A stretch of DNA of 64,000 bases, from the NCBI RefSeq assembly GCF_024713975.1, contig NC_091110.1:3111001-3175000 (forward strand), read 5' to 3'. Every line of letters starts with the position of its first letter. Positions within the stretch are counted from its first letter, which is position 1. The notes under the pieces were generated by a model. That model searched no databases. It had not been told where the DNA came from and was given only the letters and a program-made list of their open reading frames with translations. A program made the position numbers and the translations under genes. This document shows, in pieces, positions 2,210-56,094 of this stretch. The stretch is from Paralichthys olivaceus (Eukaryota; Chordata; Actinopteri; Pleuronectiformes; Paralichthyidae).

Positions 2210-2215
2210 TTTATT
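2210..2215 (-). terminator. Polyadenylation signal of zfyve16
   Basis: On the minus strand this reads AATAAA, 35 bases beyond the zfyve16 stop codon. It is the nearest canonical signal and would give a very short 3' UTR. Use of further downstream signals cannot be excluded. Confidence 0.55.
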
Positions 2216-2249
2216 TGATACTTAGTGTGGGACACTGTCTGCGTGTGCC

Positions 2250-18805
<16,556 letters not shown>

Positions 18806-30013: not shown

Positions 30014-30324
30014 CTTAGAATTTATTGCAAAATAAATGTAATAGGAAAATAAGATGCAGTTGCTTCAGTTTTTCACCGGGCTGAGGCTGAAGTCAAAGGC
30101 GGTATCTGCTGTAACCCGCTTTCTCCTCCCAAACATGCACCATGCCCACCAACCTATAGAGGTGCCCTCCTCACCATTTCACTAACGATAATGATAATTA
30201 TTATTATTTCAATTAGAGAGATGACTATGACAGCAAATCCTAATGTAGACTTCACAAATGGTTCACTTGTATGTATAGTGGTCAAGTTTAAGAATTGACA
30301 GAGTAGTACATTAAACATCAAATA

Positions 30325-30466
30325 GAGTGCTTCTATAGCTAGCACTTTTTGTTGTTCTATTGGGCAGTTTGGGGTTCAGTATCTTGCCCAAGGACACTTT
30401 GGCATTCAGATGGGAAGACTGGGGATCGAACTTCCGACCTTTTGGTTGGAGGACGACCGCTCTATG
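30325..30466 (-). mobile_element. tRNA-derived SINE fragment
   Basis: On the minus strand it reads TAGAGCGGTCGTCCTCCAAC then GGTCGGAAGTTCGATCCCC, i.e. tRNA-like A-box remnant and B box, then AGTGTCCTTGGGCAAGATAC. The same family occurs at 59457-59722. The head is truncated at the right edge. Confidence 0.7.
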
Positions 30467-31100
30467 GTAGGTCTGTCACAATAACAAATGTTGTTGTATA
30501 TTGCATTGACCCAGAAAATATTGTGATAAAAGATATCATTGTCATCACTTTGGAACCATTTCATACCACTGATATCATGAAAATATTATAGCACAATAAT
30601 AATAACCCTTACAAAGTTATCTTCTGCGTGATGCAGCCTCAGCTTCATGATCAGTATTGATCAGTATTTGATTATTATGCAGTTGAATGGCAGAGATGAG
30701 CTGATGTTTCTGATTATATAAATTATATTATGTACCTTATTTTTTTAAAACTAATTCTTGGCATATTTGTGCTCATATTATCTGATTTCTTTGGCTTGAA
30801 TGGAAACCTGTTCCTACAGTGGTTTATTGTCGACTTTGTTTCATGTTCACGGATGTAATGACACACAAAAAGATAAATCTCAATTAAAATGAATTAATTG
30901 TGTTTATTTATTTATTTATACCATATGTATTAATTTGATTTCACTTTACACAATGTTGCTGTGAAAAATAATTCAGGTTGCATGTATACGTAGGTCATTT
31001 TGTGATGATATGTGATATGATACACAGACAACAACATTATTGGTGTAAGTTTCAGTGAGAGTCCATCACTGTCCATCAGAGGATCAGTGGAAAGTGAAAA

Positions 31101-31182
31101 TTTGATATATCAAAGGACTAGAGGCACAGGTTGCCTCTAGTCCAAAAGGGACAGGTTGCCTCTAGTCCTTTGATGTATCAAA
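31101..31182. promoter_or_regulatory. Conserved hairpin upstream of kinase 1
   Basis: Arms 31101-31126 (TTTGATATATCAAAGGACTA then GAGGCA) and 31157-31182 are inverted repeats of 26 bp with one mismatch. A second short copy of the inner arm (TGCCTCTAGTCC) lies in the loop, so two alternative stems are possible. The hairpin ends 115 bases before the start codon, in the promoter or 5' UTR. Confidence 0.75.
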
Positions 31183-31297
31183 ACTGCACTTTGGGTATAG
31201 ACTCCTTTACAACTGACATGAGAACGTCACTACCTGCTGCAAACCACCGCTGGTGTAAGAAGAGAAACGTCAATTTCCACAGTACTCGAGATACGAA

Positions 31298-34088
31298 ATG
31301 GCAGAAAATCTAGTTTCACACAGCTGTTTGACAGCAAATAAAGCAGGTATGTATATTTCAACACACAGTAACCGGGAATGATTAAGTACATTTACTCAAA
31401 TGCACTACTATGAATGCTTTAACTATACGTATCTAAGATTTCTTCTGCTTTATATCTCCAGGTAAATATGTCAGAGCAGACTTTTGTTGAACAAAGTCAA
31501 AAAGTTGAATAATCCACAATGTGAAGAGATTTGTTTAGTAGGAAAGAGATGAAGAAGCAAAATGTGTTGTTTAAAGTTCAGGGAACAACAGGGTTGATGA
31601 TTTGTGTGTTCAGGGTTGATGAAGCTGGGTGAGGAAGGGGAATATGAAGCATTGAATGTTGGGCTAATGGCACCAGCTTTCACTCTGGCCTTGCTGACTC
31701 CATATTGTAACCTTCTTATGTTCTTCTTCTTGGTCACAGATGAACAGATGCAGTCAGGGGATTCTGAGGTGCCACAGAGCAACATACTGTGCAGTGGCAC
31801 CAACAGCTACCTCATCACTGAAGTGTGCGGAGAGGGGGCCTTTGGCAAAGTTGTCAAGGCCGTAAACATGGCCACATCTCAAGAAGTGGCCCTCAAAATC
31901 CTCAAACGTGAGGATGCTGCTCCAAGAGAGGTATGTAATCTTGTTCATTTTGAGGTTTTGTTTCACACTGTCTTACTCCTAACTTGTTTCTTAGAATAAC
32001 TGTTGAGATCATGCTGTGTCACCTACACCTCCTATATCCTGTTTCCTCTTTCCTCCACAGATGTGGATGCTTAAGGCAGTGAGCGCTCTTGACCCCACCA
32101 AAAGCAACGTGGTCGAATTCATGGAGCGGTTTCAGGACGGCGGACAGACCTGTCTGGTGTTTGAGCGGCTGGACATGAACCTGTACCAGCTGCTGCAACA
32201 ACGACGTGGACATCCGCTGACTCTGAGTGAGATTCGGCCCATTGCTCACCAGGTAAAGATGATGTGACTCCTTCATCAATCTATCATCGAGTGGTAACAT
32301 ACCTGTATATCTTCTAGATCTGTAAATAACATTTGACATTGTTTCTGCAGTTGCTGACAACTTTTGCCGCACTGGAGAGCATTGGGGTGATCCACACAGA
32401 CCTCAAACCAGACAATGTGATGCTGGTGAACCACGAGAGGGAGCCCTTCAGGGTGAAACTCATCGATTTTGGTGTGTCCTTCATGAGGTCAGAGAACACA
32501 CGTGGCATGAAAACCCAGCCCATAGGCTTCAGGTAGGATCGATGTGCCAACCTGTGCACTTGTGTGTTTGTGTTGTAAATGATCCAGCAGAAATTGTCTT
32601 CAGCAAACATGATGAATTTGACTTTGTATTTATGTTGGTTCTTGTTTTCACTCACAGGTCACCTGAAGTCACCCTGGGCCTCCCTGTCTCAGAGGCCATT
32701 GATATGTGGGGTCTTGGCTGCATCCTCCTTTTCCTCTACCTCGCCAACCACCCGTTTTCAGTGGACTGCGAGTACCAGGGAGTAAGTATTCAAAGATTTA
32801 AATGCAACGACTGTTACATTCGGCCACAAAAACATGTTCAGACCAACAGGAGACTTGATTTTGGCTGATGTGATTTTCGTTATCCTCTGTCCAGATGAAG
32901 GGAATTGTAGACATGCTGGGTCAGCCAGATGATGACTTCCTCAAGGCTGGAATATACAGCCACCAATTTTTCATGGAGGACAAGCACTGGTGCAACCCAG
33001 GGTGGTCGATAAAGGTATTTTAACCAGTTTTAGAATATTTTTCTCCCACTCAGACAATAGCTCTTTCCAATGTTGAACACATTATAAAGTAACTGACCAA
33101 CATGTTTTCTTCCTGTAGACCCCAAGTGAGTTTGAAAGTGGGACTGGCATCAAGGTCAAGGAGTGGGCCGGTGACATTGGAAGCCTGAATGACCTGATCA
33201 CAGTAAGTCGTCCATTTCGTTACTAAAGAAAGAATAAGTACCAAGTTTCTCTGCTGTTGAGAGACATGAAGTAGTTCAACTGTCACCTACTTTGTTTTAA
33301 ATCCAGCTTCACCCAGTGCTTAATGGATCCATTGAGCTCCAGGACAGGAGAGCATTTGTCAGTCTGCTCAAAGGCCTCCTTCAGATTGACCCCAGGAGGA
33401 GGCTAACGCCACAGAGGGGTCTCTCACACCCCTTTCTTACCATGGTCCACCTGATGGATAACATGGAAAGCCCATAGTAAGTAACTGGTTTCAGTCGTAG
33501 ATGTATTAATTGAATGAGTTGTTGATTGATTGTTCACTGACTAATCTGCTGATTTGTGTTTGTTTCAGTGTAATGCATTGTCTGGACAGCATGGGGGTCT
33601 TAGACTTGGACGACTACGATGATGAGGAAGACTTTTGCTCAGATGTTGTGGCTGAGGAAGACCCCTGGGTGGAGGAGGCTTCAGTCGTCCCACAGTCAGA
33701 GGACACAGGCTCAGCTCCTCCTCACTCCAGTGTCAGGGTTGAAGAGCTGGACCCCCCATGTGATGAGACTGCAGCTACTGGCTCATCAGATGTTGTGGCT
33801 GAGGAAGACCCCTGGGTGGAGGAGGCTTCAGTTGTACCACACTCAGAGGACACAGGCTCAGCTCCTCCTCACTCCAGTGTCAGGGTTGAAGAGCTGGACC
33901 TCCCATGTGATGACACTGCAGCTGCTGGCTCAGATGCAGAGAAATCTACTGAGAGCCAACAATTACCTGATGCAGCTCAAGAGACACAGCTCTGTGAAAA
34001 CACTCGTCCTGCCAGAGTCAGCAGACTGAAGAGGATGAGGAAGTTTTTGGGCAGAATTGTTAAGAGAGTGAAGAGATTGTTCAGATGA
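31298..34088 (+). CDS. HIPK-like protein kinase, array copy 1
   Basis: Exons 31298-31346, 31740-31930, 32061-32252, 32351-32532, 32658-32781, 32895-33014, 33119-33202, 33307-33476, 33569-34088 join in phase to 1632 nt, 543 aa. Kinase domain at about 41-362: G-loop GEGAFGKV (47-54), Lys69 in VALK, catalytic loop HTDLKPDN (159-166), DFG 183-185, SPE 206-208 and EAIDMWGLGC. The HTDLKPDN loop, the LPVSEAIDMW segment and the insert ending ETGIK-like SGTGIKVKE place it in the HIPK branch of CMGC kinases. The usual HIPK activation-loop tyrosine before the APE-like motif is replaced (QPIGFRSPE). Residues 371-394 are acidic. Two 49-residue repeats (SDVVAEEDPWVEEASVVP...) fill 395-443 and 444-492. The last 24 residues (520-543) hold 12 Lys/Arg in an amphipathic pattern ending KRVKRLFR. 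There is no signal peptide or membrane segment. Function is unknown; it is likely an active or signalling kinase. AATAAA signals follow within 100 bases. Confidence 0.9.
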
Positions 34089-35852
34089 ACGTGGATGAAG
34101 GACATGTGGAAATTTATTTTTATTTTTCTAAATTGAAAAAAAGTGAATAAAAAGTGTTAATAAATAAATAAAAGTGTTAACTAACATTTTCTTGTTTTGT
34201 TGTTTAACCAGTTACTTTAAAAACTAAAAATGCACATGTAATAATATTGAAAAGAAGAAGCAAAATTAAAAATCCTTATACAGTTACCATCAGATGTGTT
34301 TATTTCTAAACTGCCCCACATCATCAAGATGACCCTGAAACTTTGTGCATTGCCATCTAGTGGTTGTTACATTCGGCCACAAAAACATGTTCAGAGTTAG
34401 AATTTATTGCAAAATAAATGTAAAAGGAAAATAAGATGCAGTTGCTTCAGTTTTTCACCGGGCTGAGGCTGAAGTCAAAGACGGTATCTGCTGTAACCCG
34501 CTTTCTCCTCCCAACCATGCACCATGCCCACCAACTTATAGAGGTGCCCTCCTCACCATTTCACAAACGATAATTATTATTATTTCAATTAGAGAGATGA
34601 CTATGACTCTGACAGCAAATCCTAATGTAGACTTCACAAATGGTTCACTTGTGTGTATAGTGGTCAAGTTTAAGAATTGACAGAGTAGTACATTAAACAT
34701 CAATTAACTGTGTATGACTACTTTAAGTGTAGCACTACCTAACCAGGTACATTCACTTTATTAATACTGAGTGAGCTTTGATAAACATTAGCAAACTGTC
34801 AGATGTGAAATATTATAGGTAGCTGTGCTTGCTAGCTACCAGCAACAATACCTATTTAACACAACACTACCACAAACAATACAAACATTTTAATAACAAC
34901 AAGCTTTCCTGAGAAGAAGAATACTAATAAGAATACTAACAGGCTTCCCCTGTCACATATGATTAGTCTCCAAGTGCTCTGCATGCAGCATGACAACAGG
35001 GAACAGTGTCTTTCGTATTCATATTGTCCAACTAAGGCTGGGTATCGCCACTGATTTCCCACATCAGATATATTCACAAGGTCTCGATTCAGTGAAATTT
35101 CAGATTGGATTCAATATCAATTTATTTCAGGATGTTTCATTGTACAATACCAATTTAGCTTAGATATGAAAGAAGAACTAAAGTTGTAAATAGTGCAAGG
35201 AAACCTCTAACTTGGTGCAAAATTAAAATAATATGATAGGTCTGTCACAATAGCAAATGTTGTTGTATATTGTATTGACCCAGAAAATATTGTGATAAAA
35301 GATATCATTGTCATCACTTTGGAACCATTTCATACCACTGATATCATGAAAATATTATAGCACAATAATAATAACCCTTACAAAGTTGCAGCCTCAGCTT
35401 CATGATCAGTCTTGATCAGTATTTGATTATTATGCAGTTGAATGACAGAGATGAGCTGATATTTCTGATTATATAAATTATATTATGTACCTTTTTTTTT
35501 AACTAATTCTTGGCATATTTGTGCTCATATTATCTGTTTTCTTTGGCTTGAATGGAAACCTGTTCCTACAGTGGGTTATTGTCGACTTTGTTTCACGTTC
35601 ACGGTTGTGATGACACACAAAAAGATAAATCTGAAGTAAAATGAATTAATTGTGTTTATTTATTTATTTATACCATATGTATTAATTTGATTTCACTTTA
35701 CACAATGTTGCTGTGAAAAATAATTCAGGTTGCATGTATACGTAGGTCATTTTGTGATTATATGTGATATGATACACAGACAACAACATTATTGGTGTAA
35801 GTTTCAGTGAGAGTCCATCACAGTCCATCAGAGGATCAGTGGAAAGTGACAA

Positions 35853-35934
35853 TTTGATACATCAAAGGACTAGAGGCACAGGTTGCCTCTAGTCCAAAAG
35901 GGACAGGTTGCCTCTAGTCCTTTGATGTATCAAA
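35853..35934. promoter_or_regulatory. Conserved hairpin upstream of kinase 2
   Basis: Same structure as in unit 1, here with perfectly matching 26-base arms. It ends 116 bases before the start codon at 36051. Confidence 0.8.
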
Positions 35935-36050
35935 ACTGCACTTTGGGTATAGACTCCTTTACAACTGACTTTGAGAACGTCACTACCTGCTGCAAACCAC
36001 CGCTGGTGTAAGAAGAGAAACGTCAATATCCACAGTACTCACAATACGAA

Positions 36051-38843
36051 ATGGCAGAAAATCTAGTTTCACACAGCTGTTTGACAGCAAATAAAGCTGG
36101 TATGTATATTTCAATAAACAGTAACTGGGAATTATTGAGTACATTTACTCAAATACACTACTATGAATGCTTTAACTATACGTATCTAAGATTTCTTCTG
36201 CTTTATATCCATGTAAATATGTCAAAGGAGCAGACTTTTGTTGAACAAAGTCAAAAAGTTTCATAATCCACAATGTGAAGAAAAAGATTTGTTTAGTAGG
36301 AAAGAGATGAAGCAGAATGTGTTGTTTAAAGTTCAGGGAACAACAGGGTTGATGATTTGTGTGTTCAGGGTTGATGAAGCTGGGTGAGGAAGGGGAATAT
36401 GAAGCATTGAATGTTGGGCTAATGGCACCAGCTTTCACTCTGCCCCTGCTGACTCCATATTGTAACCTTCTTATGTTCTTCTTCTTGGTCACAGATGAAC
36501 AGATGCAGTCAGGGGATTCTGAGGCGCCACAGAGCAACATACTGTGCAGTGGCACCAACAGCTACCTCATAACTGAAGTGTGCGGAGAGGGGGCCTTTGG
36601 CAAAGTTGTCAAGGCCGTAAACATGGCCACATCTCAAGAAGTGGCCCTCAAAATCCTCAAACGTGAGGATGCTGCTCCAAGAGAGGTATGTAATCTTGTT
36701 CATTTTGAGGTTTTGTTTCACATTGTCTTACTCCTAACTTGTTTCTTAGAATAACTGTTGAGACCATGCTGTGTCATCTACACCTCCTATATCCTGTTTC
36801 CTCTTTCCTCTACAGATGTGGATGCTTAAGGCAGTGAGCGCTCTTGACCCCACCAAAAGCAACGTGGTCGACTTCATTGAGCGGTTTCAGGACGGCGGAC
36901 AGACCTGTCTGGTGTTTGAGCGGCTGGACATGAACCTGTACCAGCTGCTGCAACAACGACGTGGACATCCGCTGACTCTGAGTGAGATTCGGCCCATTGC
37001 TCACCAGGTAAAGATGATGTGACTCCTTCATCAATCTATCATCGAGTGGTAACATACCTGTTTGTCTTCTAGATCTGTAAATAACATTTGACATTGTTTC
37101 TGCAGTTGCTGACAACTTTTGCCGCACTGGAGAGCATTGGGGTGATCCACACAGACCTCAAACCAGACAATGTGATGCTGGTGAACCACGAGAGGGAGCC
37201 CTTCAGGGTGAAACTCATCGATTTTGGTGTGTCCTTCATGAGGTCAGAGAATACGCGTGGCATGAAAACCCAGCCCATAGGCTTCAGGTAGGATCGATGT
37301 GCCAACCTGTGCACTTGTGTGTTTGTATTGTAAATGATCCAGCAGAAATTGTCTTCAGCAAACATGATGAATTTGACTTTGTATTTATGTTGGTTCTTGT
37401 TTTCATTCACAGGTCACCTGAAGTCACCCTGGGCCTCCCTGTGTCAGAGGCCATTGATATGTGGGGTCTGGGCTGCATCCTCCTTTTCCTTTACCTCGCC
37501 AACCACCCTTTTTCAGTGGACTGCGAGTACCAGGGAGTAAGTATTCAAAGATTTAAATGCACCGACTGTTACATTCGGCCACAAAAACATGTTCAGCCCA
37601 ACAGGAGACTTGATTTTGGCTGATGTGATTTTCGTTATTCTCTGTCCAGATGAAGGGAATTGTAGACATGCTGGGTCAGCCAGATGATGACTTCCTCAAG
37701 GCTGGAATATACAGCCACCAATTCTTCATGGAGGACAAGCACTGGTGCAACCCAGGGTGGTCGATAAAGGTATTTTAACCAGTTTTAGAATATTTTTCTC
37801 CCACTCAGACAATAGCTCTTTCCAATGTTGAACACATTATAAAGTAACTGACCAACATGTTTTCTTCCTGTAGACCCCAAGTGAGTTTGAAAGTGGGACT
37901 GGCATCCAGGTCAAGGAGTGGGCCAGTGACATTGGAAGCCTGAATGACCTGATCACAGTAAGTCATCCATTTCATTACTAAAGAAAGAATTAGTACCAAG
38001 TGTCTCTGCTGTTGAGAGACATGAAGTAGTTAAACTGTCACCTACTTTGTTTTAAATCCAGCTTCACCCAGTGCTGAATGGATCCATTGAGCTCCAGGAC
38101 AGGAGAGCGTTCGTTAGTCTGCTCAAAGGCCTCCTTCAGATTGACCCCAGGAGGAGGCTAACGCCACAGAGGGGTCTCTCACACCCCTTTCTTACCATGG
38201 TCCACCTGATGGATAACATGGAAAGCCCATAGTAAGTAACTGGTTTCAGTCGTAGATGTATTAAGGGAATGAGTTGTTGATTGATTCTTCACTGACTAAT
38301 CTGCTGATATGTGTTTTTTTCAGTGTAATGCATTGTCTGGACAGCATGGGGGTCTTAGACTTGGACGACTACGATGATGAGGAAGACTTTTGCTCAGATG
38401 TTGTGGCTGAGGAAGACCCCTGGGTGGAGGAGGCTTCAGTCGTCCCACAGTCAGAGGACACAGGCTCAGCTCCTCCTCACTCCAGTGTCAGGGTTGAAGA
38501 GCTGGTTCCCCCATGTAATGAGACTGCAGCTGCTGGCTCATCAGATGTTGTGGCTGAGGAAGACCCCTGGGTGGAGGAGGCTTCAGTTGTACCACAGTCA
38601 GAGGACACAGGCTCAGCTCCTCCTCACTCCAGTGTCAGGGTTGAAGAGCTGGACCTCCCATGTGATGACACTGCAGCTGCTGGCTCAGATGCAGAGAAAT
38701 CAGTTGAGAGCCAACAATTACCTGATGCAGCTCAAGAGACACAGCTCTGTGAAGACACTCGTCCTGCCAGAGTCAGCAGACTGAAGAGGATGAGGAAGTT
38801 TTTTGGCAGAATTGTTAAGAGAGTAAAGAGATTGTTCAGATGA
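36051..38843 (+). CDS. HIPK-like protein kinase, array copy 2
   Basis: Exons 36051-36099, 36495-36685, 36816-37007, 37106-37287, 37413-37536, 37650-37769, 37874-37957, 38062-38231, 38324-38843, giving 1632 nt and 543 aa. Every exon has exactly the length found in copy 1. All catalytic motifs are kept (GEGAFGKV, VALK, HTDLKPDN, DFG). Differences from copy 1 are scattered substitutions, for example DFIERFQ for EFMERFQ, VKEWASD for VKEWAGD and EELVPPCNE in the first acidic repeat. The two acidic repeats and the basic tail (KFFGRIVKRVKRLFR) are intact. No disabling change is visible, so the gene looks functional. Close similarity in introns and spacer as well as exons points to recent duplication or gene conversion. 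Confidence 0.9.
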
Positions 38844-40491
38844 ACGTGGATGAAGGACATGTGGAAATTTATTTTTATTTTTATAAATTGAAAAAAAGTG
38901 AATAAAAAGTGTTAATAAATAAATAAAAGTGTTAACTAACATTTTCTTGTTTTGTTGTTTAACCAGTTACTTTAAAAACTTAAAATACACATGTAATAAT
39001 ATTGAAAAAAAGAAGCAAAATTAAAAATCCTTATACAGTTACCATCAGATGTGTTTATTTCTAAACTGCCCCACATCATCAAGATGACCCTGAAACTTTG
39101 TGCAGCATTGCCATCTAGTGGCTGTTACATTCGGCCACAAAAACATGTTCAGACTTAGAATTTATTGCAAAATAAATGTAAAAGGAAAATAAGATGCAGT
39201 TGCTTCAGTTTTTCACCGGGCTGAGGCTGAAGTCAAAGACGGTATCTGCTGTAACCCGCTTTCTCCTCCCAACCATGCACCATGCCCACCAACTTATAGA
39301 GGTGCCCTCCTCACCATTTCACAAACGATAATGATAATTATTATTATTTCAATTAGAGAGATGACCATGACTCTGACAGCAGATCCTAATGTAGACTTCA
39401 CAAATGGTTCACTTGTATGTATAGTGGTCAAGTTTAAGAATTGACAGAGTAGTACATTAAACATCCATTAACTGTGTATGACTACTTTAAGTGTAGCACT
39501 ACCTAACCAGGTACATTCAATTTATTTATACTGAGTGAGCTTTGATAAACATTAGCAAACTGTCAAATATGAAATATTATAGGTAGCTGTGTTTGCTAGC
39601 TACCAGCAACAATACCTATTTAACACAACACTACCACAAACAATACAAACATTTTAATAACAACAAGCTTTCCTGAGAAGAAGAATACTAATAAGAATAC
39701 TAACAGGCTTCCTCTGTCACATATGATTATTCTCCAAGTGCTCTGCATGCAGCATGACAACAGGGAACAGTGTCTTTCGTATTCATATTGTCCAACTAGG
39801 GCTGGGTATCGCCACTGATTTCCCACATCAGATATATTCACAAGGTCTCGATTCAGTGAAATTTCAGATTGGATTCAATATCGATTTATTTCAGGATGTT
39901 TCATTGTACAATACCAATTTAGCTTGGATATGAAAGAAGAACTAAAGTTGTAAACGGTGCAAGGAAACCTCTAACTTGGTGCAAAATTAAAATAATATGA
40001 TAGGTCTGTCACAATAACAAATGTTGTTGTATATTGTATTGACCCAGAAAATATTGTGATAAAAGATATCATTGTCATCACTTTGGAACCATTTCATACC
40101 ACTGATATCATGAAAATATTATAGCACAATAATAATAACCCTTACAAAGTTGCAGCCTCAGCTTCATGATCAGTCTTGATCAGTATTTGATTATTATGCA
40201 GTTGAATGGCAGAGATGAGCTGATATTTCTGATTATATAAATTATATTATGTACCTTTTTTTTTTAACTAATTCTTGGCATATTTGTGCTCATATTATCT
40301 GTTTTCTTTGGCTTGAATGGAAACCTGTTCCTACAGTGGGTTATTGTCGACTTTGTTTCACGTTCACGGTTGTGATGACACACAAAAAGATAAATCTGAA
40401 GTAAAATGAATTAAATGTGTTTATTTATTTATTTATACCATATGTATTAATTTGATTTGACTTTACACAATGTTGCTGTGAAAAATAACAA

Positions 40492-40573
40492 TTTGATACA
40501 TCAAAGGACAAGAGGCACAGGTTGCCTCTAGTCCAAAAGGGACAGGTTGCCTCTAGTCCTTTGATGTATCAAA
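40492..40573. promoter_or_regulatory. Conserved hairpin upstream of kinase 3
   Basis: Same structure, with one arm mismatch (GGACAAGAGGCA). It is retained although the flanking ~115 bases are deleted in this unit. Confidence 0.75.
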
Positions 40574-40689
40574 ACTGCACTTTTGGTATAGACTCCTTTA
40601 CAACTGACTTTGAGAACGTCACTACCTGCTGCAAACCACCGCTGGTGTAAGAAGAGAAACGTCAATTTCCACAGTACTCGAGATACGAA

Positions 40690-43481
40690 ATGGCAGAAAA
40701 TCTAGTTTCACACAGCTGTTTGACAGCAAATAAAGCTGGTATGTATATTTCAACACACAGTAACCGGGAATGATTAAGTACATTTACTCAAATGCACTAC
40801 TATGAATGCTTTAACTATACGTATCTAAGATTTCTTCTGCTTTATATCTCCAGGTAAATATGTCAAAGGAGCAGACTTTTGTTGAACAAAGTCAAAAAGT
40901 TGTATAATCCACAATGTGAAGAGATTTGTTTAGTAGGAAAGAGATGAAGAAGCAAAATGTGTTGTTTAAAGTTCAGGGAACAACAGGGTTGATGATTTGT
41001 GTGTTCAGGGTTGATGAAGCTGGGTGAGGAAGGGGAATATGAAGCATTGAATGTTGGGCTAATGGCACCAGCTTTCACTCTGGCCTTGCTGACTCCATAT
41101 TGTAACCTTCTTATGTTCTTCTTCTTGGTCACAGATGAACAGATGCAGTCAGGGGATTCTGAGGCGCCACAGAGCAACATACTGTGCAGTGGCACCAACA
41201 GCTACCTCATAACTGAAGTGTGCGGAGAGGGGGCCTTTGGCAAAGTTGTCAAGGCCGTAAACATGGCCACATCTCAAGAAGTGGCCCTCAAAATCCTCAA
41301 ACGTGAGGATGCTGCTCCAAGAGAGGTATGTAATCTTGTTCATTTTGAGGTTTTGTTTCACATTGTCTTACTCCTAACTTGTTTCTTAGAATAACTGTTG
41401 AGACCATGCTGTGTCATCTACACCTCCTATATCCTGTTTCCTCTTTCCTCCACAGATGTGGATGCTTAAGGCAGTGAGCGCTCTTGACCCCACCAAAAGC
41501 AACGTGGTCGACTTCATTGAGCGGTTTCAGGACGGCGGACAGACCTGTCTGGTGTTTGAGCGGCTGGACATGAACCTGTACCAGCTGCTGCAACAACGAC
41601 GTGGACATCCGCTGACTCTGAGTGAGATTCGGCCCATTGCTCACCAGGTAAAGATGATGTGACTCCTTAATCAATCTATCATCGAGTAGTAACATACCTG
41701 TATATCTTATAGATCTGTAAATAACATTTGACATTGTTTCTGCAGTTGCTGACAACTTTTGGCGCACTGGAGAGCATCGGGGTGATCCACACAGACCTCA
41801 AACCAGACAATGTGATGCTGGTGAACCACGAGAGGGAGCCCTTCAGGGTGAAACTCATCGATTTTGGTGTGTCCTTCATGAGGTCAGAGAATACGCGTGG
41901 CATGAAAACCCAGCCCATAGGCTTCAGGTAGGATCGATGTGCCAACCTGTGCACTCGTGTTTGTGTTGTAAATGATCCAGCAGTAATTCTCTTCAGCATA
42001 CATGATGAATTTGACTTTGTATTTATGTTGGTTCTTGTTTTCACTCACAGGTCACCTGAAGTCACCCTGGGCCTCCCTGTATCAGAGGCCATTGATATGT
42101 GGGGTCTGGGCTGCATCCTCCTTTTCCTCTACCTCGCCAACCACCCGTTTTCAGTGGACTGCGAGTACCAGGGAGTAAGTATTCAAAGATTTCAATGCAA
42201 CAACTGTTACATTCGGCCACAAAAACATGTTCAGACCAACAGGAGACTTGATTTTGGCTGATGTGATTTTCGTTATTCTCTGTCCAGATGAAGGGAATTG
42301 TAGACATGCTGGGTCAGCCAGATGATGACTTCCTCAAGGCTGGAATATACAGCCACCAATTTTTCATGGAGGACAAGCACTGGTGCAACCCAGGGTGGTC
42401 GATAAAGGTATTTTAACCAGTTTTAGAATATTTTTCTCCCACTCAGACAATAGCTCTTTCCAATGTTGAACACATTATAAAGTAACTGACCAACATGTTT
42501 TCTTCCTGTAGACCCCAAGTGAGTTTGAAAGTGGGACTGGCATCCAGGTCAAGGAGTGGGCCGGTGACATTGGAAGCCTGAATGACCTGATCACAGTAAG
42601 TCGTCCATTTCGTTACTAAAGAAAGAATTAGTACCAAGTTTCTCTGCTGTTGAGAGACATGAAGTAGTTCAACTGTCACCTACTTTGTTTTAAATCCAGC
42701 TTCACCCAGTGCTGAATGGATCCATTGAGCTCCAGGACAGGAGAGCATTCGTCAGTCTGCTCAAAGGCCTCCTTCAGATTGACCCCAGGAGGAGGCTAAC
42801 GCCACAGAGGGGTCTCTCACACCCCTTTCTTACCATGGTCCACCTGATGGATAACATGGAAAGCCCATAGTAAGTAACTGGTTTCAGTCGTAGATGTATT
42901 AATTGAATGAGTTGTTGATTGATTGTTCACTGACTAATCTGCTGATTTGTGTTTTTTTCAGTGTAATGCATTGTCTGGACAGCATGGGGGTCTTAGACTT
43001 GGACGACTACGATGATGAGGAAGACTTTTGCTCAGATGTTGTGGCTGAGGAAGACCCCTGGGTGGAGGAGGCTTCAGTCGTCCCACAGTCAGAGGACACA
43101 GGCTCAGCTCCTCCTCACTCCAGTGTCAGGGTTGAAGAGCTGGACCCCCCATGTGATGAGGATGCAGCTGCTGGCTCATCAGATGTTGTGGCTGAGGAAG
43201 ACCCCTGGGTGGAGGAAGCATCAGTTGTACAACAGTCAGAGGACACAGGCTCAGCTCCTCCTCACTCCAGTGTCAGGGTTGAAGAGCTGGACCTCCCATG
43301 TGATGACACTGCAGCTGCTGGCTCAGATGCAGAGAAATCAGCTGAGAGCCAACAATTACCTGATGCAGCTCAAGAGACACAGCTCTGTGAAGACACTCGT
43401 CCTGCCAGAGTCAGCAGACTGAAGAGGATGAGGAAGTTTTTTGGCAGAATTGTTAAGAGAGTGAAGAGATTGTTCAGATGA
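40690..43481 (+). CDS. HIPK-like protein kinase, array copy 3
   Basis: Exons 40690-40738, 41135-41325, 41456-41647, 41746-41927, 42051-42174, 42288-42407, 42512-42595, 42700-42869, 42962-43481, giving 1632 nt and 543 aa, with exon lengths equal to copies 1 and 2. Kinase motifs, the altered activation loop (QPIGFRSPE), the acidic 49-residue repeats and the basic C-terminal helix are all present. Individual changes include LLTTFGALESIG for LLTTFAALESIG before the catalytic loop, and VVQQSEDTG in the second acidic repeat. It looks intact. Function is unknown; see copy 1 for the domain description. Confidence 0.9.
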
Positions 43482-45245
43482 ACGTGGATGAAGGACATGT
43501 GGAAATTTATTTTTATAAATTGAAAAAAAGTGAATAAAAAGTGTTAATAAATAAATAAAAGTGTTAAGTAACATTTTCTTGTTTTGTTGTTTAACCAGTT
43601 ACTTTAAAAACTTAAAATACACATGTAATAATATTGAAAAAAAGAAGCAAAATTAAAAATCCTTATACAGTTACCATCAGATGTGTTTATTTCTAAACTG
43701 CCCCACATCATCAAGATGACCCTGAAACTTTGTGCATTGCCATCTAGTGGCTGTTACATTCGGCGCAAAAACATGTTCAGACTTAGAATTTATTGCAAAA
43801 TAAATGTAATAGGAAAATAAGATGCAGTTGCTTCAGTTTTTCACCGGGCTGAGGCTGAAGTCAAAGACGGTATCTGCTGTAACCCGCTTTCTCCTCCCAA
43901 CCATGCACCATGCCCACCAACTTATAGAGGTGCCCTCCTGACCTTTTCACAAACGATAATGATAATTATTATTATTTCAATTAGAGAGATGACCATGACT
44001 CTGACAGCAGATCCTAATGTAGACTTCACAAATGGTTCACTTGTATGTATAGTGGTCAAGTTTAAGAATTGACAGAGTAGTACATTAAACATCCATTAAC
44101 TGTGTATGACTACTTTAAGTGTAGCACTACCTAACCAGGTACATTCAATTTATTTATACTGAGTGAGCGTTGATAAACATTAGCAAACTGTCAAATATGA
44201 AATATTATAGGTAGCTGTGTTTGCTAGCTACCAGCAACAATACCTATTTAACACAACACTACCACAAACAATACAAACATTTTAATAACAACAAGCTTTC
44301 CTGAGAAGAAGAATACTAATAAGAATACTAACAGGCTTCCTCTGTCACATATGATTATTCTCCAAGTGCTCTGCATGCAGCATGACAACAGGGAACAGTG
44401 TCTTTCGTATTCATATTGTCCAACTAGGGCTGGGTATCGCCACTGATTTCCCACATCAGATATATTCACAAGGTCTCGATTCAGTGAAGTTTCAGATTGG
44501 ATTCAATATCGATTTATTTCAGGATGTTTCATTGTACAATACCAATTTAGCTTGGATATGAAAGAAGAACTAAAGTTGTAAACGGTGCAAGGAAACCTCG
44601 AACTTGGTGCAAAATTAAAATAATATGGTAGGTCTGTCACAATAGCAAATGTTGTTGTATATTATATTGACCCAGAAAATATTGTGATAAAAGATATCAT
44701 TGTCATCACTTTGGAACCATTTCATACCACTGATATCATGAAAATATTATACCGCAATAATAATAACCCTTACAAAGTTGCAGCCTCAGCTTCATGATCA
44801 GTATTGATCAGTATTTGATTATTATGCAGTTGAATGACAGAGATGAGCTGATATTTCTGATTATATAAATTATATTATGTACCTTTTTTTTTTAACTAAT
44901 TCTTGGCATATTTGTGCTCATATTATCTGTTTTCTTTGGCTTGAATGGAAACCTGTTCCTACAGTGGGTTATTGTCGACTTTGTTTCACGTTCACGGTTG
45001 TGATGACACACAAAAAGATAAATCTGAAGTAAAATGAATTATTTGTGTTTATTTATTTATTTATACCATATGTATTAATTTGATTTCACTTTACACAATG
45101 TTGCTGTGAAAAATAATTCAGGTTGCATGTATACGTAGGTCATTTTGTGATGATATGTGATATGATACACAGACAACAACATTATTGGTGTAAGTTTCAG
45201 TGAGAGTCCATCACTGTCCATCAGAGGATCAGTGGAAAGTGACAA

Positions 45246-45327
45246 TTTGATACATCAAAGGACTAGAGGCACAGGTTGCCTCTTGTCCAAAAGGGACAGG
45301 TTGCCTCTAGTCCTTTGATGTATCAAA
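45246..45327. promoter_or_regulatory. Conserved hairpin upstream of kinase 4
   Basis: Same structure with perfect 26-base outer arms. The loop copy of the inner arm has one change (CTCTTGTCC). It ends 116 bases before the start codon at 45444. Confidence 0.8.
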
Positions 45328-45443
45328 ACTGCACTTTGGGTATAGACTCCTTTACAACTGACTTTGAGAACGTCACTACCTGCTGCAAACCACCGCTGGT
45401 GTAAGAAGAGAAACGTCAATATCCACAGTACTCACAATACGAA

Positions 45444-48213
45444 ATGGCAGAAAATCTAGTTTCACACAGCTGTTTGACAGCAAATAAAGCAGGTATGTAT
45501 ATTTCAATAAACAGTAACTGGGAATTATTGAGTACATTTACTCAAATACACTACTATGAATGCTTTAACTATACGTATCTAAGATTTCTTCTGCTTTATA
45601 TCCATGTAAATATGTCAAAGGAGCAGACTTTTGTTGAACAAAGTCAAAAAGTTTCATAATCCACAATGTGAAGAAAAAGATTTGTTTAGTAGGAAAGAGA
45701 TGAAGCAGAATGTGCTGTTTAAAGTTCAGGGAACAACAGGGTTGATGATTTGTGTGTTCAGGGTTGATGAAGCTGGGTGAGGAAGGGGAATATGAAGCAT
45801 TGAATGTTGGGCTAATGGCACCAGCTTTCACTCTGGCCTTGCTGACTCCATATTGTAACCTTCTTATGTTCTTCTTCTTGGTCACAGATGAACAGATGCA
45901 GTCAGGGGATTCTGAGGTGCCACAGAGCAACATACTGTGCAGTGGCACCAACAGCTACCTCATAACTGAAGTGTGCGGAGAGGGGGCCTTTGGCAAAGTT
46001 GTCAAGGCCGTAAACATGGCCACATCTCAAGAAGTGGCCCTCAAAATCCTCAAACGTGAGGATGCTGCTCCAAGAGAGGTATGTAATCTTGTTCATTTTG
46101 AGGTTTTGTTTCACATTGTCTTACTCCTAACTTGTTTCTTAGAATAACTGTTGAGACCATGCTGTGTCATCTACACCTCCTATATCCTGTTTCCTCTTTC
46201 CTCTACAGATGTGGATGCTTAAGGCAGTGAGCGCTCTTGACCCCACCAAAAGCAACGTGGTCGACTTCATTGAGCGGTTTCAGGACGGCGGACAGACCTG
46301 TCTGGTGTTTGAGCGGCTGGACATGAACCTGTACCAGCTGCTGCAACAACGACGTGGACATCCGCTGACTCTGAGTGAGATTCGGCCCATTGCTCACCAG
46401 GTAAAGATGATGTGACTCCTTCATCAATCTATCATCGAGTGGTAACATACCTGTATATCTTCTAGATCTGTAAATAACATTTGACATTGTTTCTGCAGTT
46501 GCTGACAACTTTTGCCGCACTGGAGAGCATTGGGGTGATCCACACAGACCTCAAACCAGACAATGTGATGCTGGTGAACCACGAGAGGGAGCCCTTCAGG
46601 GTGAAACTCATCGATTTTGGTGTGTCCTTCATGAGGTCAGAGAACACGCGTGGCATGAAAACCCAGCCCATAGGCTTCAGGTAGGATCGATGTGCCAACC
46701 TCATTGTGTGCACTCGTGTTTGTGTTGTAAATGATCTAGCAGAAATTGTCTTCAGCAAACATGATGAATTTGACTTTGTATTTATGTTGGTTCTTGTTTT
46801 CACTCACAGGTCACCTGAAGTCACCCTGGGCCTCCCTGTGTCAGAGGCCATTGATATGTGGGGTCTTGGCTGCATCCTCCTTTTCCTCTACCTCGCCAAC
46901 CACCCGTTTTCAGTGGACTGCGAGTACCAGGGAGTAAGTATTCAAAGATTTAAATGCAACAACTGTTACATTCGGCCACAAAAACATGTTCAGACCAACA
47001 GGAGACTTGATTTTGGCTGATGTGATTTTCGTTATTCTCTGTCCAGATGAAGGGAATTGTAGACATGCTGGGTCAGCCAGATGATGACTTCCTCAACGCT
47101 GGAATATACAGCCACCAATTCTTCATGGAGGACAAGCACTGGTGCAACCCAGGGTGGTCGATAAAGGTATTTTAACCAGTTTTAGAATATTTTTCTCCCA
47201 CTCAGACAATAGCTCTTTCCAATGTTGAACACATTATAAAGTAACTGACCAACATGTTTTCTTCCTGTAGACCCCAAGTGAGTTTGAAAGTGGGACTGGC
47301 ATCCAGGTCAAGGAGTGGGCCGGTGACATTGGAAGCCTGAATGACCTGATCACAGTAAGTCGTCCATTTCATTACTAAAGAAAGAATTAGTACCAAGTGT
47401 CTCTGCTGTTGAGAGACATGAAGTAGTTAAACTGTCACCTACTTTGTTTTAAATCCAGCTTCATCCAGTGCTGAATGGATCCATTGAGCTCCAGGACAGG
47501 AGAGCATTCGTCAGTCTGCTCAAAGGCCTCCTTCAGATTGACCCCAGGAGGAGGCTAACGCCACAGAGGGGTCTCTCACACCCCTTTCTTACCATGGTCC
47601 ACCTGATGGATAACATGGAAAGCCCATAGTAAGTAACTGGTTTCAGTCGTAGATGTATTAATTGAATGAGTTGTTGATTGATTGTTCACTGACTAATCTG
47701 CTGATTTGTGTTTTTTTCAGTGTAATGCATTGTCTGGACAGCATGGGGGTCTTAGACTTGGACGACTACGATGATGAGGAAGACTTTTGCTCAGATGTTG
47801 TGGCTGAGGAAGACCCCTGGGTGGAGGAGGCTTCAGTCGTCCCACAGTCAGAGGACACAGGCTCAGCTCCTCCTCACTCCAGTGTCAGGGTTGAAGAGCT
47901 GGTTCCCCCATGTGATGAGACTGCAGCTGCTGGCTCATCAGATGTTGTGGCTGAGGAAGACCCCTGGGTGGAGGAGGCTTCAGTTGTACCACAGTCAGAG
48001 GACACAGGCTCAGCTCCTCCTCACTCCAGTGTCAGGGTTGAAGAGCTGGACCTCCCATGTGATGACACTGCAGCTGAGAGCCAACAATTACCTGATGCAG
48101 CTCAAGAGACACAGCTCTGTGAAGACACTCGTCCTGCCAGAGTCAGCAGACTGAAGAGGATGAGGAAGTTTTTGGGCAGAATTGTTAAGAGAGTGAAGAG
48201 ATTGTTCAGATGA
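45444..48213 (+). CDS. HIPK-like protein kinase, array copy 4
   Basis: Exons 45444-45492, 45888-46078, 46209-46400, 46499-46680, 46810-46933, 47047-47166, 47271-47354, 47459-47628, 47721-48213, giving 1605 nt and 534 aa. The first eight exons match the other copies in length. The last exon is 27 bases shorter, an in-frame loss of nine residues (AGSDAEKS region) between the second acidic repeat and the tail. The kinase core is intact, and LNAGIYSHQFF replaces LKAGIYSHQFF. The C-terminus keeps the basic amphipathic helix. The 3' flank after the stop is more divergent than between copies 1-3 for about 100 bases. It looks functional. Confidence 0.9.
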
Positions 48214-48505
48214 ACTTGGATGAAGGACAAGTGGAAATTAATTTTAATTAAAGTATAAATGTAAAAAAAATTTTTTAAAGTAAATAAAAAGTGTTAATAA
48301 ATAAATAAAAGTGTTAAGTAACATTTTCTTGTTTTGTGTTTTAACCAGTAACTTTAAAAACTTAAAATACACATGTAATAATATTGAAAAAAAGAAGCAA
48401 AATTAAAAAACCTTATACAGTTACCATCAGATGTGTTTATTTCTAAACTGCCCCACATCATCAAGATGACCCTGAAACTTTGTGCAGCATTGCCATCTAG
48501 TGGCT

Positions 48506-48959: not shown

Positions 48960-49115
48960 CTCTCCCCTTTCAAATGTGGCCACATGAAAAAGAATCCATG
49001 TGGTCATCATAATGAAGAACCTGGTGGGATGGCTGGCCGTAATCCTTGATGCACCCCCAACCTGTCTGTGGACGATCCACTCTACCTCCTGAGCCACAGC
49101 CGCCAACATATGCAA
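48960..49115 (-). mobile_element. tRNA-derived SINE relic
   Basis: The minus strand begins TTGGCGGCTGTGGCTCAGGA GGTAGAGTGG, a tRNA A-box head shared by many fish SINEs. The B box is poorly preserved. Confidence 0.5.
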
Positions 49116-49319
49116 CTGCAGATCCAGAATCTCTGTCCTGTATCCAACCTGAACACTCACCTTCATGACGCGAGGCCACGTTTCCCCTGATGAGACGTGA
49201 GAGGTGTCACATCACAAACTTACTATTTTGTGTTTTGCCACCATAAATTCAGCAACTTTACAAATTTAACAAAGTAAAGTTAGTTGAAGAAAATACTTTT
49301 ACTACGTTTACAAATCCTT

Positions 49320-49460
49320 TAAATTTTGTACTTCTGTTTTTAATAAAGTCCCTGATACTCTCTTGGATTTCTGTCTCTTTGCGATTCAATGTGTAGAAAA
49401 GTTGAACACATCTGTGAAAGTTGAAATGTTCATTATTGTCCCAGAGAATAAACAAATGTG
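49320..49460 (+). pseudogene. 3' end scrap of a further MHC class I unit
   Basis: The sequence TTTGTACTTCTGTTTTTAAT AAAGTCCCTG and what follows matches the 3' flank of MHC gene 1 at about 57011-57150, including the polyadenylation-type AATAAA. It marks the left edge of the duplicated block and implies that another class I gene once ended here, to the left. No exon remains. Confidence 0.5.
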
Positions 49461-50204
49461 GATTTGACCTGTAAGAGCAGCAAGGAAAAACCTATTTGGT
49501 CAAACCTGTGACTCTTTTCAGGAAAAAGACAAAGACATTTTACACATGACGACAAAATGGTTGTGGTGGTTTGATTGTGAAGTAATTTGGTCTTTTCTCA
49601 CGTTTGATTTGCTGCTGACTTTAACAACCTCGTTATTTTAGGAGGATCATTGTTGTTTTGTTGTCAAGTGTAAAACCACTTTGTGATTGAGTGTTTTCAT
49701 TATCAGACATGAGCAGATCCACTGATCTCTCGCTCACACTTAGTTTTAAGGCTGCCTCCACTCAACTAGCTGTAACGTGCTGTGGGACACCCCGACAGAG
49801 ACACACTCACCTGGACAGGTCCATCATATATATACAGTCAGACCAGACAACATGCAGATGTGAACCACTTCAGGCAATGATGTGACACTTCTGGTCTCCT
49901 TCTTGTGGCCCAAACAAAATGGATGTGATTATAAAGTTGCCCACTTGTAAAATAATATCACAAAACTAATTCAGGGTTGACTTGTGACCCAGATCTGGCA
50001 AAAGGGAGCAGACCACCCAAGTGCCATCATTCCCCACCACATGTGGGCCCGATGTGGGATGTGAGGGATGAGGGATGTAGGTCAAATCTGGACCAAAACA
50101 GTTTTCCTGTGTAGGATTGTTCAAACAGCTGAAAACCACAAGTCATGACCATGAATGATCCTGTGGTTGTGGACCTCTGCTCTTCTTTCAACACAAACAC
50201 ATCC

Positions 50205-50434
50205 TCATGACCAGAGCTTTGCTTTCACTTCCGTTAATAACCTCAGTCTGTTCACCCGGATTTAAGTGACTAGAGGCTGATCCTGAATTCTCATTGGCTC
50301 AGGTGATGTCACCTCCTCTCTGTGTGTCCTCTTATCTCGTTGTTTTTTGTCTCTGCAGCCACAGTCCGTCTCTCTGTGGACAAAAGACCTCATCTACCTT
50401 CAGTCCAGCAAAGAGAAATATACCACCGCTCACA
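50205..50434 (+). promoter_or_regulatory. Promoter of MHC class I gene 1
   Basis: Contains GCTTTCACTTCC (50221-50232), an imperfect interferon-response element, then CTCATTGGCTCAGG (50291-50304, inverted CCAAT/Y-box type) and TGATGTCACC (50304-50313, CRE/X2-like). Similar elements precede gene 2, where the interferon motif is cleaner. Confidence 0.55.
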
Positions 50435-52910
50435 ATGCACACTTTACTTTTCCTGCTTCTACTGGCAGGAACACACAGCGCGACGGCAAGTGAGTTCTAG
50501 TTTCTACTTGACTTGATTTGATTTGGTGGATTTTAAATGAAAGACAAATGCTCCGTGTATTTGAAAGACACTTAAATGATTTGAAGGTCTATTGTAATGT
50601 TTGATGTTTGGTTCCTTCAGATTTTAGAAGTTGAATAAAGTTTCAAAGAGCTGATTTAAAAGTTCATGTGAGTAAATGTCATTGATCTCATGTAAGAAGG
50701 AAAGCTTCTGTTCTCTTTCTGAAAAGGTCAACTGAAAAGTGACTTTTCTTTTTCTTTCTTCTGATCCTGACCATTAGTTTATTTCGTCCTTTGATCACAA
50801 CCATTAAGATCGACACGGTCCGAGCTGGTTCTAGACAAAATTTCGCAACGATTCTGCAGCGAAAAAGTCCAACAGACTCCGATAAATCAAGAAACAGTGA
50901 AAAACGAAGCAACAGTTCAACTCCGCGATAAAACACAGAGTTTCTTGTCTGTTCTAAACATTATGAACTTGATTATTTCACACTCGGTTTTTCATGACGT
51001 GTCTCGTGTTTCATGTTGGTTTTTAAAAAGTTGTGAAGAAATAACAGGTTCAGTCTGTTGATGTGAATCAAGACTGTTATTGATGTAAATACATATATTT
51101 GAACATCTTTTAAATGATTGATGATTCATTTCCCATCGCCTCAAACACCTCAATTATTCATCTAAACTGGGTCAGCTGACAAATAAGGCGACGACTCAGT
51201 TTTGGTTTTTATTGTAGTCGGTTGGTGGCGCTGTTTCCATAGATACAGAAAGTGCTGAGGACAAACAGCTTCCTGCTTTGCTGGTTCAATATTCAACATC
51301 CTTAAAGAAGATGTGCATTTATCTTTACATTTTAAAACATGGATAAAAACATACATGTTTATTTTCTTCATTCAAGTTCTGTTTGGTCATATTTGTGTTT
51401 TCTTTGTATTATTATTACAGTTCTAGTTATTTATAATGAATCTTATGGTTTAACATTTAAATATAAAGTCTAAATTACATGTCTTTGTAAGTGTTTGACA
51501 TTGACATCTTTGGAATCAGTGCCAAACATACATATTAAAAAATCTACATTCTATACATTTAAAACACAGTCAAGCCCTTCCTGTAAAAACGTCTCACTTT
51601 GTTTTGTTAGCTGGGTCGAGTGTAAATGTATATGTGTATATATGGAGGAATATATATATATTTATATATAGACTGAGAGAAACCACTAACAGCTCTTATG
51701 CTGTAATTTGAATTTTGAATATGATAATGAGGACTTTGAGATAAATGTCAAAATAAATGTCTCATGTAGTACCTGGAAATTGAAGTAGTTTTCACTTCAC
51801 ATGAAATAATCTGCAGTAGAAAATATTATTTTCTAATATTAAATATTTGAGTCGTTAGATTGAATCCATGTTTAAGGCGTAGAATTCAAAGTAAAGAGTG
51901 TCTGGACTCTGGAGCAGACGTTTTATCTATCAATGTATTTTTGTGTTTGTTTACCACACAACAGAGATTCTGAAGTTGTCTTGAATGTACTTCATGTCTT
52001 CTTGACTCTGAGTGCAGTGATTTATTAAACATTCTGAAACTAAAGTCAGGACTTTAACTTTTTCTTGCAGGGACTCACTCTCTGAAGTTTTTGTTCACTG
52101 CGTCCTCTCAAGTCCCAAACTTTCCAGAGTTTGTGGTTGTTGGTTTGGTTGATGAAGTTCAGATTTTTCACTATGACAGCAACACAAAGAAAGCAGAACC
52201 CAAACAGGACTGGATGTTGAAGGCAACAGATACACAGTACTGGGAGAGGGAGACTGGGAACCTTTTGGGTCACCAGCAGTGGCTCAAATTCGCCATTGAA
52301 ATCGTAAAGGGACGCTTCAACCAGACTGGAGGTTTGTTTACGTTTACCTTTAAAAGGTGGTATATTTTAGACAATCTTCAAAATTAAAGTTACCTTTTTA
52401 ACATCTTACTTTTCACAACTGTATGAATTCCATCATTGCTGAAATTATGACAGAAAATATAAAATAAAAATTACAATGAAATCTCAATAAATAATGTCTC
52501 AGACAGTTTCAGATATTTATGAGTTTGTGCAATTTGGTCATAAAAATGTGTCTGTAGTGAATTTAAATGTGTTTTCATGAGGTGACTGTTGGGCCTTGGT
52601 GGAGGTTTGTGCTGGACTGAGTGATGTTCTAGTTTGATGCTACTAAAACCTGGGGGTGGGGTTTATTATTGACAGACTGACTCACGATTGGTCGAGCGTG
52701 TGTACCAGCGAGACCTCGGTACCTTTGCTCCATAACCGATCGCTCTGGGTGACAGCGTTCATATCTGTTGTATTTTGGCTTCGTTCCTGGACAGTGGGAG
52801 GAAGTGGAGACGTGTCGTCCATCTTTATAAACAGTCATGGTCTGTTCCTGCTGCTGACATGATGTCACCACCTTCAACAGAGTAGATGAACTGTGTGTGT
52901 GTGTGTGTGT

Positions 52911-52969
<59 letters not shown>

Positions 52970-55900: not shown

Positions 55901-56094
55901 CTTCATTTTGTGCTGAAGAGAGTTTTCAGGACTGTTCCCTGCAGTGTTGGTTGTTTGTAATAAAAGTGTCTGTTCAGAGGAGGATAGTCTCATGATGTGT
56001 TTCTGACCTCACAGCTGGAAATGATCCAAATGTCTTAAACACTCTGAACCCAGATGGACAAGTTTCTAATCCTCCAAGTGAGACGTCCTCCTGA
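50435..56094 (+). CDS. MHC class I heavy chain, U-lineage type, gene 1 (possibly non-classical)
   Basis: Exons 50435-50489 (leader), 52071-52331 (alpha1), 53027-53305 (alpha2), 54132-54434 (alpha3), 54747-54851 (membrane), 55188-55205, 55342-55359, 55497-55514 (three 18-bp tail micro-exons), 56015-56094, giving 1137 nt and 378 aa. Signal peptide MHTLLFLLLLAG. Alpha1 has PNFPEFVVVG and the NQT glycosylation site at its end. Alpha2 has the CEWDDETGEVKGYN loop. Alpha3 is an Ig domain (SCHATGFYPD ... YDCVF), and the membrane helix is IIIIAAVVGVVLAVVLAVIG. It should present ligands at the cell surface with beta2-microglobulin. By HLA numbering, peptide-anchor positions read F7, Y59, R84, F143, Q146, L147, Y159, F171, so several canonical anchors are lost. 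An extra Cys precedes Cys101. The splice model is complete, with no stop. Confidence 0.9.
52893..52980. repeat. TG microsatellite, MHC gene 1 intron 2
   Basis: A long (TG)n tract ending in GTGCGTGCGTGCGTGC, about 45 bases before the alpha2 exon acceptor. A matching tract sits at the same place in gene 2. It creates a spurious Cys/Val open frame running into the exon. Confidence 0.9.
53520..53725. repeat. Dispersed fish repeat rich in AGGTCA
   Basis: Contains four closely spaced GGTCAAA/AGGTCA units at 53529-53560 and another cluster at 53690-53720, around TTCTTGAACATGATGTCATC and TTTGGTACAAACTTTCACTT. The same family occurs at about 55690-55800 and 63240-63350 (ATCTTGTGAACACGATATCT). It is a common non-coding fish repeat, missing from the same intron of gene 2. 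Confidence 0.6.
55100..55560 (+). repeat. Triplicated ~155-bp micro-exon unit
   Basis: Three direct repeats, period 154-155 bp, each with intron, acceptor, an 18-bp exon (VKCLLC, LKCLLC, LKCLPS) and a GTAAGT donor. Each adds six in-frame residues to the cytoplasmic tail of MHC gene 1. Confidence 0.85.

Follow-up and report, generated by a model that had tools for sequence, protein, structure and literature searches.

The four genes described here, designated HK1 to HK4, lie in a 64,000-nucleotide stretch of the Paralichthys olivaceus genome (the window; C18:3111001-3175000, i.e., positions 3,111,001 to 3,175,000 of NC_091110.1 in assembly GCF_024713975.1). They are direct tandem genes, found between 31298 and 48213 at a copy spacing of approximately 4.64-4.76 kb (Table 1). 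Each spliced model contained nine coding exons with GT-AG at every border and an unbroken frame, and encoded a protein of 543 residues (534 for HK4, which has a 27-nt deletion, i.e., nine residues, between the repeats and the tail) in which a HIPK-type kinase domain is followed by two acidic repeats of 49 residues and a cationic end of 24 residues. These models, together with best PDB matches to HIPK2 and HIPK3, agree with an earlier note, made from the sequence alone, that four intact HIPK-like kinases are present; the span given there (30014..48505) holds the whole array, but its start was not borne out since the first gene begins at 31298. In all four genes, unspliced read-through of the intron-8 donor gives an immediate TAG (33475-33477, 38230-38232, 42868-42870 and 47627-47629), and retention of this intron would yield a kinase ending after ESP, without repeats or tail. 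The window protein begins MAENLVSHSC and, judged by eye, looks cytosolic.

Table 1. Positions of the kinase genes, their parts and neighboring features in the window
Feature	Position	Strand	Remarks
HK1	31298-34088	+	543 aa; Pfam Pkinase 1.8e-40; best PDB match HIPK2
HK1 exons	31298-31346, 31740-31930, 32061-32252, 32351-32532, 32658-32781, 32895-33014, 33119-33202, 33307-33476, 33569-34088	+	
HK1 intron 8	33477-33568	+	
HK1 acidic repeat pair	33639-33932	+	two 147-nt units
HK1 tail (24 residues)	34014-34085	+	codons of the cationic amphipathic segment
HK2	36051-38843	+	9 exons, 543 aa
HK2 acidic repeat pair	38394-38687	+	homologous to HK1 pair
HK2 tail	38769-38840	+	
HK3	40690-43481	+	9 exons, 543 aa
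HK3 acidic repeat pair	43032-43325	+	homologous to HK1 pair
HK3 tail	43407-43478	+	
HK4	45444-48213	+	9 exons, 534 aa
HK4 acidic repeat pair	47791-48084	+	homologous to HK1 pair
HK4 tail	48139-48210	+	
FYVE-domain protein	16176-18323	-	neighbor gene
Ubiquitin-conjugating enzyme exon	27467-27880	+	neighbor gene
MHC class I domains	52.06-54.44 kb and 60.28-61.41 kb		after kinase array

The relationship of the kinase domain to known kinases was evident from a PDB search, in which E values for the kinase part were 4e-76 for HIPK2, 2e-75 for HIPK3 and 2e-37 for DYRK1B, and bit scores were 260 for HIPK2, 132 for DYRK1B, 110 for CLK1 and 102 for PRP4. The top matches (HIPK2 6p5s and HIPK3 7o7i) spanned nearly the whole catalytic domain, which by sequence is nearer to HIPK than to DYRK, CLK or PRP4. 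The glycine loop (GEGAFGKV), VAIK-type lysine (VALK), catalytic aspartate (HTDLKPDN) and DFG motif were present in all four models, as expected of active protein kinases. Only kinase families were matched by the window protein in Pfam, and the 14 NCBIfam kinase models matched by HK1 were all under their cut-offs. In canonical HIPKs, the C-terminal region is long and carries homeobox-interacting, SUMO-interacting and YH segments. The catalytic domain of the window genes matches HIPK2 and HIPK3 best by far in PDB; these genes differ from HIPK1-4 (CMGC/DYRK group) in their compact 543 residues, acidic repeats, cationic tail and a lysine in place of the activation-loop tyrosine. According to passages of PMC12738607, this tyrosine is the site of cis-autophosphorylation in DYRKs and HIPKs. 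The lysine was found in HK1, the loop was identical in HK2-HK4, and in a column-by-column alignment the tyrosine was kept in three of 18 rows from the same genome (both C11 rows and C3) and missing from the other 15. By this substitution the window genes are not canonical HIPKs, and their kinases would be either active without tyrosine autophosphorylation of the HIPK/DYRK type or switched differently. Selection holds the kinase, as indicated by dN/dS values (ratios of nonsynonymous to synonymous substitution rates) of 0.08-0.16 for the kinase exons across the six pairs of HK1-HK4.

The 24-residue C-terminal segment with 12 basic residues (K or R) that the earlier note had pointed out was confirmed in the spliced models. 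In a stretch of 22 residues, all nine hydrophobic residues fell within 90 degrees of the moment axis, and the best 18 residues had a helical moment of 0.68 as opposed to 0.26 in shuffles, a value reached by 0.28% of 5000 shuffles. AlphaFold2 prediction for the last exon alone (172 residues) gave a mostly disordered chain with a mean predicted local distance difference test score of 51.5, in which a short helix (138-143) and a long helix (146-171; block means 67, 76 and 63) were noted. The input alignment consisted of the four window last exons and was therefore shallow, so that this helix is given moderate weight. Both the moment and the structure prediction that had been proposed as checks thus point to an amphipathic cationic helix in the window tail. 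Pfam gave nothing at cut-off for the last exon (two matches, E 0.046 and 0.061, were well under it) and a PDB search with this exon gave chance-level matches only (E 0.19). The suggestion that the tail belongs to no known family therefore stood as far as Pfam and PDB domains are concerned, although the tail proved not to be peculiar to the four genes.

The acidic repeat unit is exactly 147 nt long and occurs twice per gene, the seven other copies in HK1-HK4 being 93-98% identical to the reference copy, as the description of two near-identical 49-residue repeats had implied. Selection on these repeats is loose or absent, since dN/dS for the repeat linker was 0.38-1.17 in five pairs; the sixth pair showed no synonymous change. 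The net charge of the HK1 linker is -33. Among 13 tail-bearing last exons measured (L061 and single-exon loci left out), linker charge ranged from -7 to -76 in 10 and was near neutral in three (-3 for C22, and +5 and -3 for two C12 genes), whereas the tail was present in all 13 with a charge of +5 to +13. Linkers of different loci differed in their letters while being mostly acidic in kind. What stays constant is therefore the tail, which an acidic array often but not always accompanies.

Relatives of the window genes were sought in the whole 588-Mb assembly (25 contigs), which gave 154 exon or gene matches. By hand count, with one HRD-region exon or one single-exon frame taken per place, at least 48 HIPK-like places were present among the matches listed, of which some were damaged and one was tail-less. 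Close copies of the window last exon numbered 11, all on C18: besides the four of the window, seven were located at C18:3191388-3220072. None of the 11 had lost the tail or either repeat; the eleventh copy (C18:3191388) is truncated at its 5' end. Both counts accord with the earlier proposal of an expanding family. Three diverged partial relatives of the last exon were noted on C14, C18 and C3, with broken kinase frames around the first. In 13 of the 16 further multi-exon loci that were read, the last exon ended in a cationic, aromatic-rich segment (cores such as LFKRIRSFF, LLRRIGKFF, RVKRILEFFGRVKRLF and FGRIVKKAFVKIFKKI); one of these, L061, had a missing kinase exon and a frame that extends beyond the usual end. 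The three tail-less loci were L054 and L057, whose kinase appears damaged (with HTN at the catalytic aspartate and DFS instead of DFG), and L064, which is tail-less within the stretch fetched and may have a further exon beyond it. A cationic segment also followed the kinase in all 10 single-exon loci.

In a table of 20 tail rows and one tail-less row (one per group, chosen by us), tails were compared by the lipid-binding discriminant, 0.944 muH + 0.33 z, which combines hydrophobic moment with charge. Values were at least 2.3 for 19 of the 20 tails, 1.67 for C8 and 0.54 for the tail-less row, and the hydrophobic moment was above 95% of shuffles in 15 of the 20, these rows not being independent. 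Thus, by sequence the window genes fit a tail-bearing HIPK-like family with a common plan, i.e., a HIPK-type catalytic domain, a long low-complexity linker, usually built of tandem acidic repeats, and an amphipathic segment of cationic character that lies at the C-terminus or close to it. The recurrence of the same kind of tail on many distant relatives makes it look like a working part rather than an oddity of one locus.

Variation on this plan was noted in two subfamilies. The C9:7.2M subfamily has lost DFG and probably consists of pseudokinases. The single-exon HIPK-like loci L006 and L008-L010 (C9:7.21-7.23M), with NFR or NFG in place of DFG, are probable pseudokinases that still bear RHFLGLRK-type segments, L008-L010 being identical across a 442-residue frame. 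A genome search with one tail type gave 32 matches, several of which were internal tandem copies within C11 last exons, in frames of up to 781 codons, while some, in frames of 37 codons, may be remnants. In L055 (C11:7.55M, 1601-3181), three tail copies were seen in the last exon with VDDAAVDDVAVDD-like acidic repeats between them, and its C11 neighbors also held several tails, in last-exon frames of 530-781 codons, and are thus multivalent.

Trees that set tail-bearing rows against HIPK2, HIPK3 and the tail-less L064 were computed with 20 rows (17 tail-bearing) and 18 rows (15 tail-bearing), L054, L057 and L061 being excluded, C5 shortened, and C20:15.0M and C9:7.23M omitted from the smaller tree. 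Support for the split between these two sets was 99/98 and 100/98, respectively; a further tree also without HIPK2 and HIPK3 was uninformative on this point. The trees were midpoint-rooted and, as the program warned, L064 and the HIPKs sit on long branches, so that their joining may be false. A phylogeny of the kind suggested in the earlier note, here with HIPK2 and HIPK3, thus places the tail-bearing rows on one side, as a split rather than a proven clade. Likeness to the window tail was reached by none of 2000 shuffles for C22, 25 for C9:7.2M, 39 for C11, 49 for C12, 110 for C14, 192 for C9:20M and 213 for C19 (seven comparisons, uncorrected). Common descent is likely for the tail of the window-C22-C12 group, and because the likeness of C19, C14 and C9:20M did not exceed that of shuffles, the same kind of tail may have been gained repeatedly outside this group. 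Within the C11-type group of seven paralogues, the 24 tail codons gave a pooled pN/pS of 0.44 (bootstrap 0.27-0.69; 21 pairs, not independent), by which the tail is constrained in this subfamily.

The reading that we favor, at about even odds, is that the tail acts as an amphipathic membrane tether, joined to the HIPK-like kinase by a flexible spacer. The cationic helix would lie on an anionic membrane, which may be a host endomembrane, the plasma membrane, the surface of a microbe or the vacuole in which it resides, and would tether the kinase there reversibly. The spacer would provide reach and would guard against unwanted contacts of the basic tail with nucleic acid or the kinase. Given the missing activation-loop tyrosine, the kinase might be switched by engagement of the tail. 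Several observations weigh against this interpretation. The window tail is weakly hydrophobic on average (0.04), so that a purely electrostatic partner is possible; confidence in the predicted helix is moderate and the underlying alignment shallow; five of the 20 tail rows (C8, C19, C4, C9:7.22M and C20:15.0M) were not significantly amphipathic compared with shuffles; the segment ends 2-60 residues short of the C-terminus in nine single-exon loci and 121 residues short in L006; and likeness to the window tail was within the shuffle range for C19, C14 and C9:20M. To these may be added a precedent of caution by analogy: in GRK5, passages of PMC3838385 describe the basic C-terminal helix as only one of several membrane determinants, and such a helix need not dominate membrane binding.

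A further point against membrane tethering emerged from a scan of 10 tails with known calmodulin, nuclear localization signal and RVxF patterns. Loose calmodulin-type spacing (1-10 or 1-16) was found in all 10, which keeps alive the possibility that the tail, as a basic amphipathic helix of approximately 20 residues with bulky hydrophobics, binds calmodulin or another acidic partner and acts as a regulatory helix under Ca2+ control, of a type found in several kinases. Since the specific 1-5-10 and 1-8-14 patterns occurred in just three and four of these tails, respectively, the window tail having neither, and since the tail is distant from the kinase, we regard this explanation as improbable, if still worth carrying. 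The same standing is accorded to a nuclear or nucleolar localization or nucleic-acid-binding element. HIPKs are nuclear kinases, half of the 24 tail residues are basic and K[KR]x[KR] patterns are present in the window tail; such patterns were, however, noted in just five of the 10 tails, and the hydrophobic face that recurs in most tail rows is not needed by a nuclear localization signal. A PP1-docking RVxF motif was present in one tail of the 10 and was rejected as a candidate.

The earlier note also raised an intramolecular lock between tail and acidic repeats; in such a lock, the tail would fold onto the repeats (or onto the kinase) and inhibit the kinase until displaced. The pairing of an acidic linker with a basic tail in 10 of the 13 last exons measured speaks for this arrangement. 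The C22 and both C12 genes, however, keep the tail with near-neutral linkers, by which an acidic-repeat lock was rejected as a universal mechanism, and the window repeats evolve almost freely; we consider a lock in the window genes rather unlikely. We consider it very improbable that the tail works as an antimicrobial peptide that is set free or comes to be exposed on microbes: its charge and amphipathicity match those of cationic antimicrobial peptides, but the protein looks cytosolic by eye. A positive antimicrobial assay would say little, given how many basic amphipathic helices are bactericidal in vitro. Equally hard to credit, and already opposed by the sequence data, is the view that the genes are relaxed tandem copies becoming pseudogenes with the tail as inherited baggage, for although damaged relatives exist (L047, L048, L057, probably L054 and L061, and the truncated eleventh array copy), four copies are intact with low kinase dN/dS, the tail is kept in all 11 array last exons and it is constrained in the C11-type group.

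The position of the array beside major histocompatibility complex (MHC) class I genes, as described in the earlier note, was confirmed (Table 1). DNA immediately upstream of the truncated eleventh copy (C18:3191388; L033 1-1510) was 93-98% identical, piecewise, to window stretches at 49.1-50.4 and 56.0-57.4 kb. These stretches (within 49100-57434) adjoin the MHC genes, and in the copy they join kinase intron 8 directly; MHC and kinase blocks were therefore co-duplicated at least once, which fits, without proving, a role in cell-autonomous defense. In a consensus scan of upstream DNA, an interferon-stimulated response element (ISRE)-like site, GAAAGTGAAA at 31090-31099 (GAAANNGAAA at -208), was found upstream of HK1 only. 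At this site HK2 and HK4 are one base off (GACA for the last GAAA) and HK3 differs more; no ISRE-type element common to HK1-HK4 was found, and a shared interferon promoter was rejected. The proposed membership of an immune repertoire thus draws on neighborhood and copy turnover, from which an immune role may be inferred, and not on a shared promoter element. No relative was confirmed in viral_contigs that would indicate a viral source, and a word search of a teleost MHC class I review (PMC4364491) gave no mention of UBE2L3, HIPK or kinase. A tRNA-Leu (taa) called by ARAGORN with its bacterial setting at 51502-51593 (minus strand), in the apparent first intron of an MHC class I gene, is probably spurious.

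Two known systems resemble the plan in part. GRK4/5/6, defined by an RGS-homology domain and an AGC kinase domain, belong to another kinase group and offer at most a functional analogy, as the window protein matches kinase families only in Pfam and HIPK/DYRK best in PDB. The Toxoplasma ROP2/ROP18 family resembles the present one in being multicopy and in mixing kinases with pseudokinases, and its arginine-rich amphipathic helices direct the proteins to a vacuole membrane; these helices are N-terminal, the proteins are secreted by the parasite and the lineage is unrelated. Two titles cited in PMC6442604 bear on the likeness. In fish, one genome paper lists HIPK among expanded families of the anglerfish Lophius litulon and links it to eye size (PMC7729161), and another counts Hipk1 with the genes whose families are found in marine medaka alone (PMC7493909); the Lophius members may belong to the tail-bearing lineage. 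A gene called hipk1, which may be canonical hipk1 or a member of the tail-bearing family, was mildly raised in trout after infection with viral hemorrhagic septicemia virus (PMC10821180). No description of the tail or the tail-bearing family was found among the literature matches listed, which is weak evidence as most subscription journals were not covered.

The broadest form of the membrane-tethering interpretation, which we put forward as a long shot, is a layer of cell-autonomous defense built from a fast-multiplying fish family of HIPK-like kinases and pseudokinases that seek membranes. The helix would dock on anionic membranes of microbes or vacuoles, the acidic array would be a tether open to evolutionary change, and the kinase would mark this surface or signal from it. 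In design, such proteins would be the host's answer to the kinases with amphipathic helices found in intracellular parasites. Counts of HIPK expansion in fish genome papers may reflect the tail-bearing lineage rather than developmental HIPK1-4. This lineage occupies at least 48 listed places in one fish genome, and most of the loci read carry a C-terminal module unmatched by Pfam. Should membranes prove to be the target of the helix, this would be a case of a nuclear kinase lineage being redirected and amplified in fish, in part alongside MHC class I.

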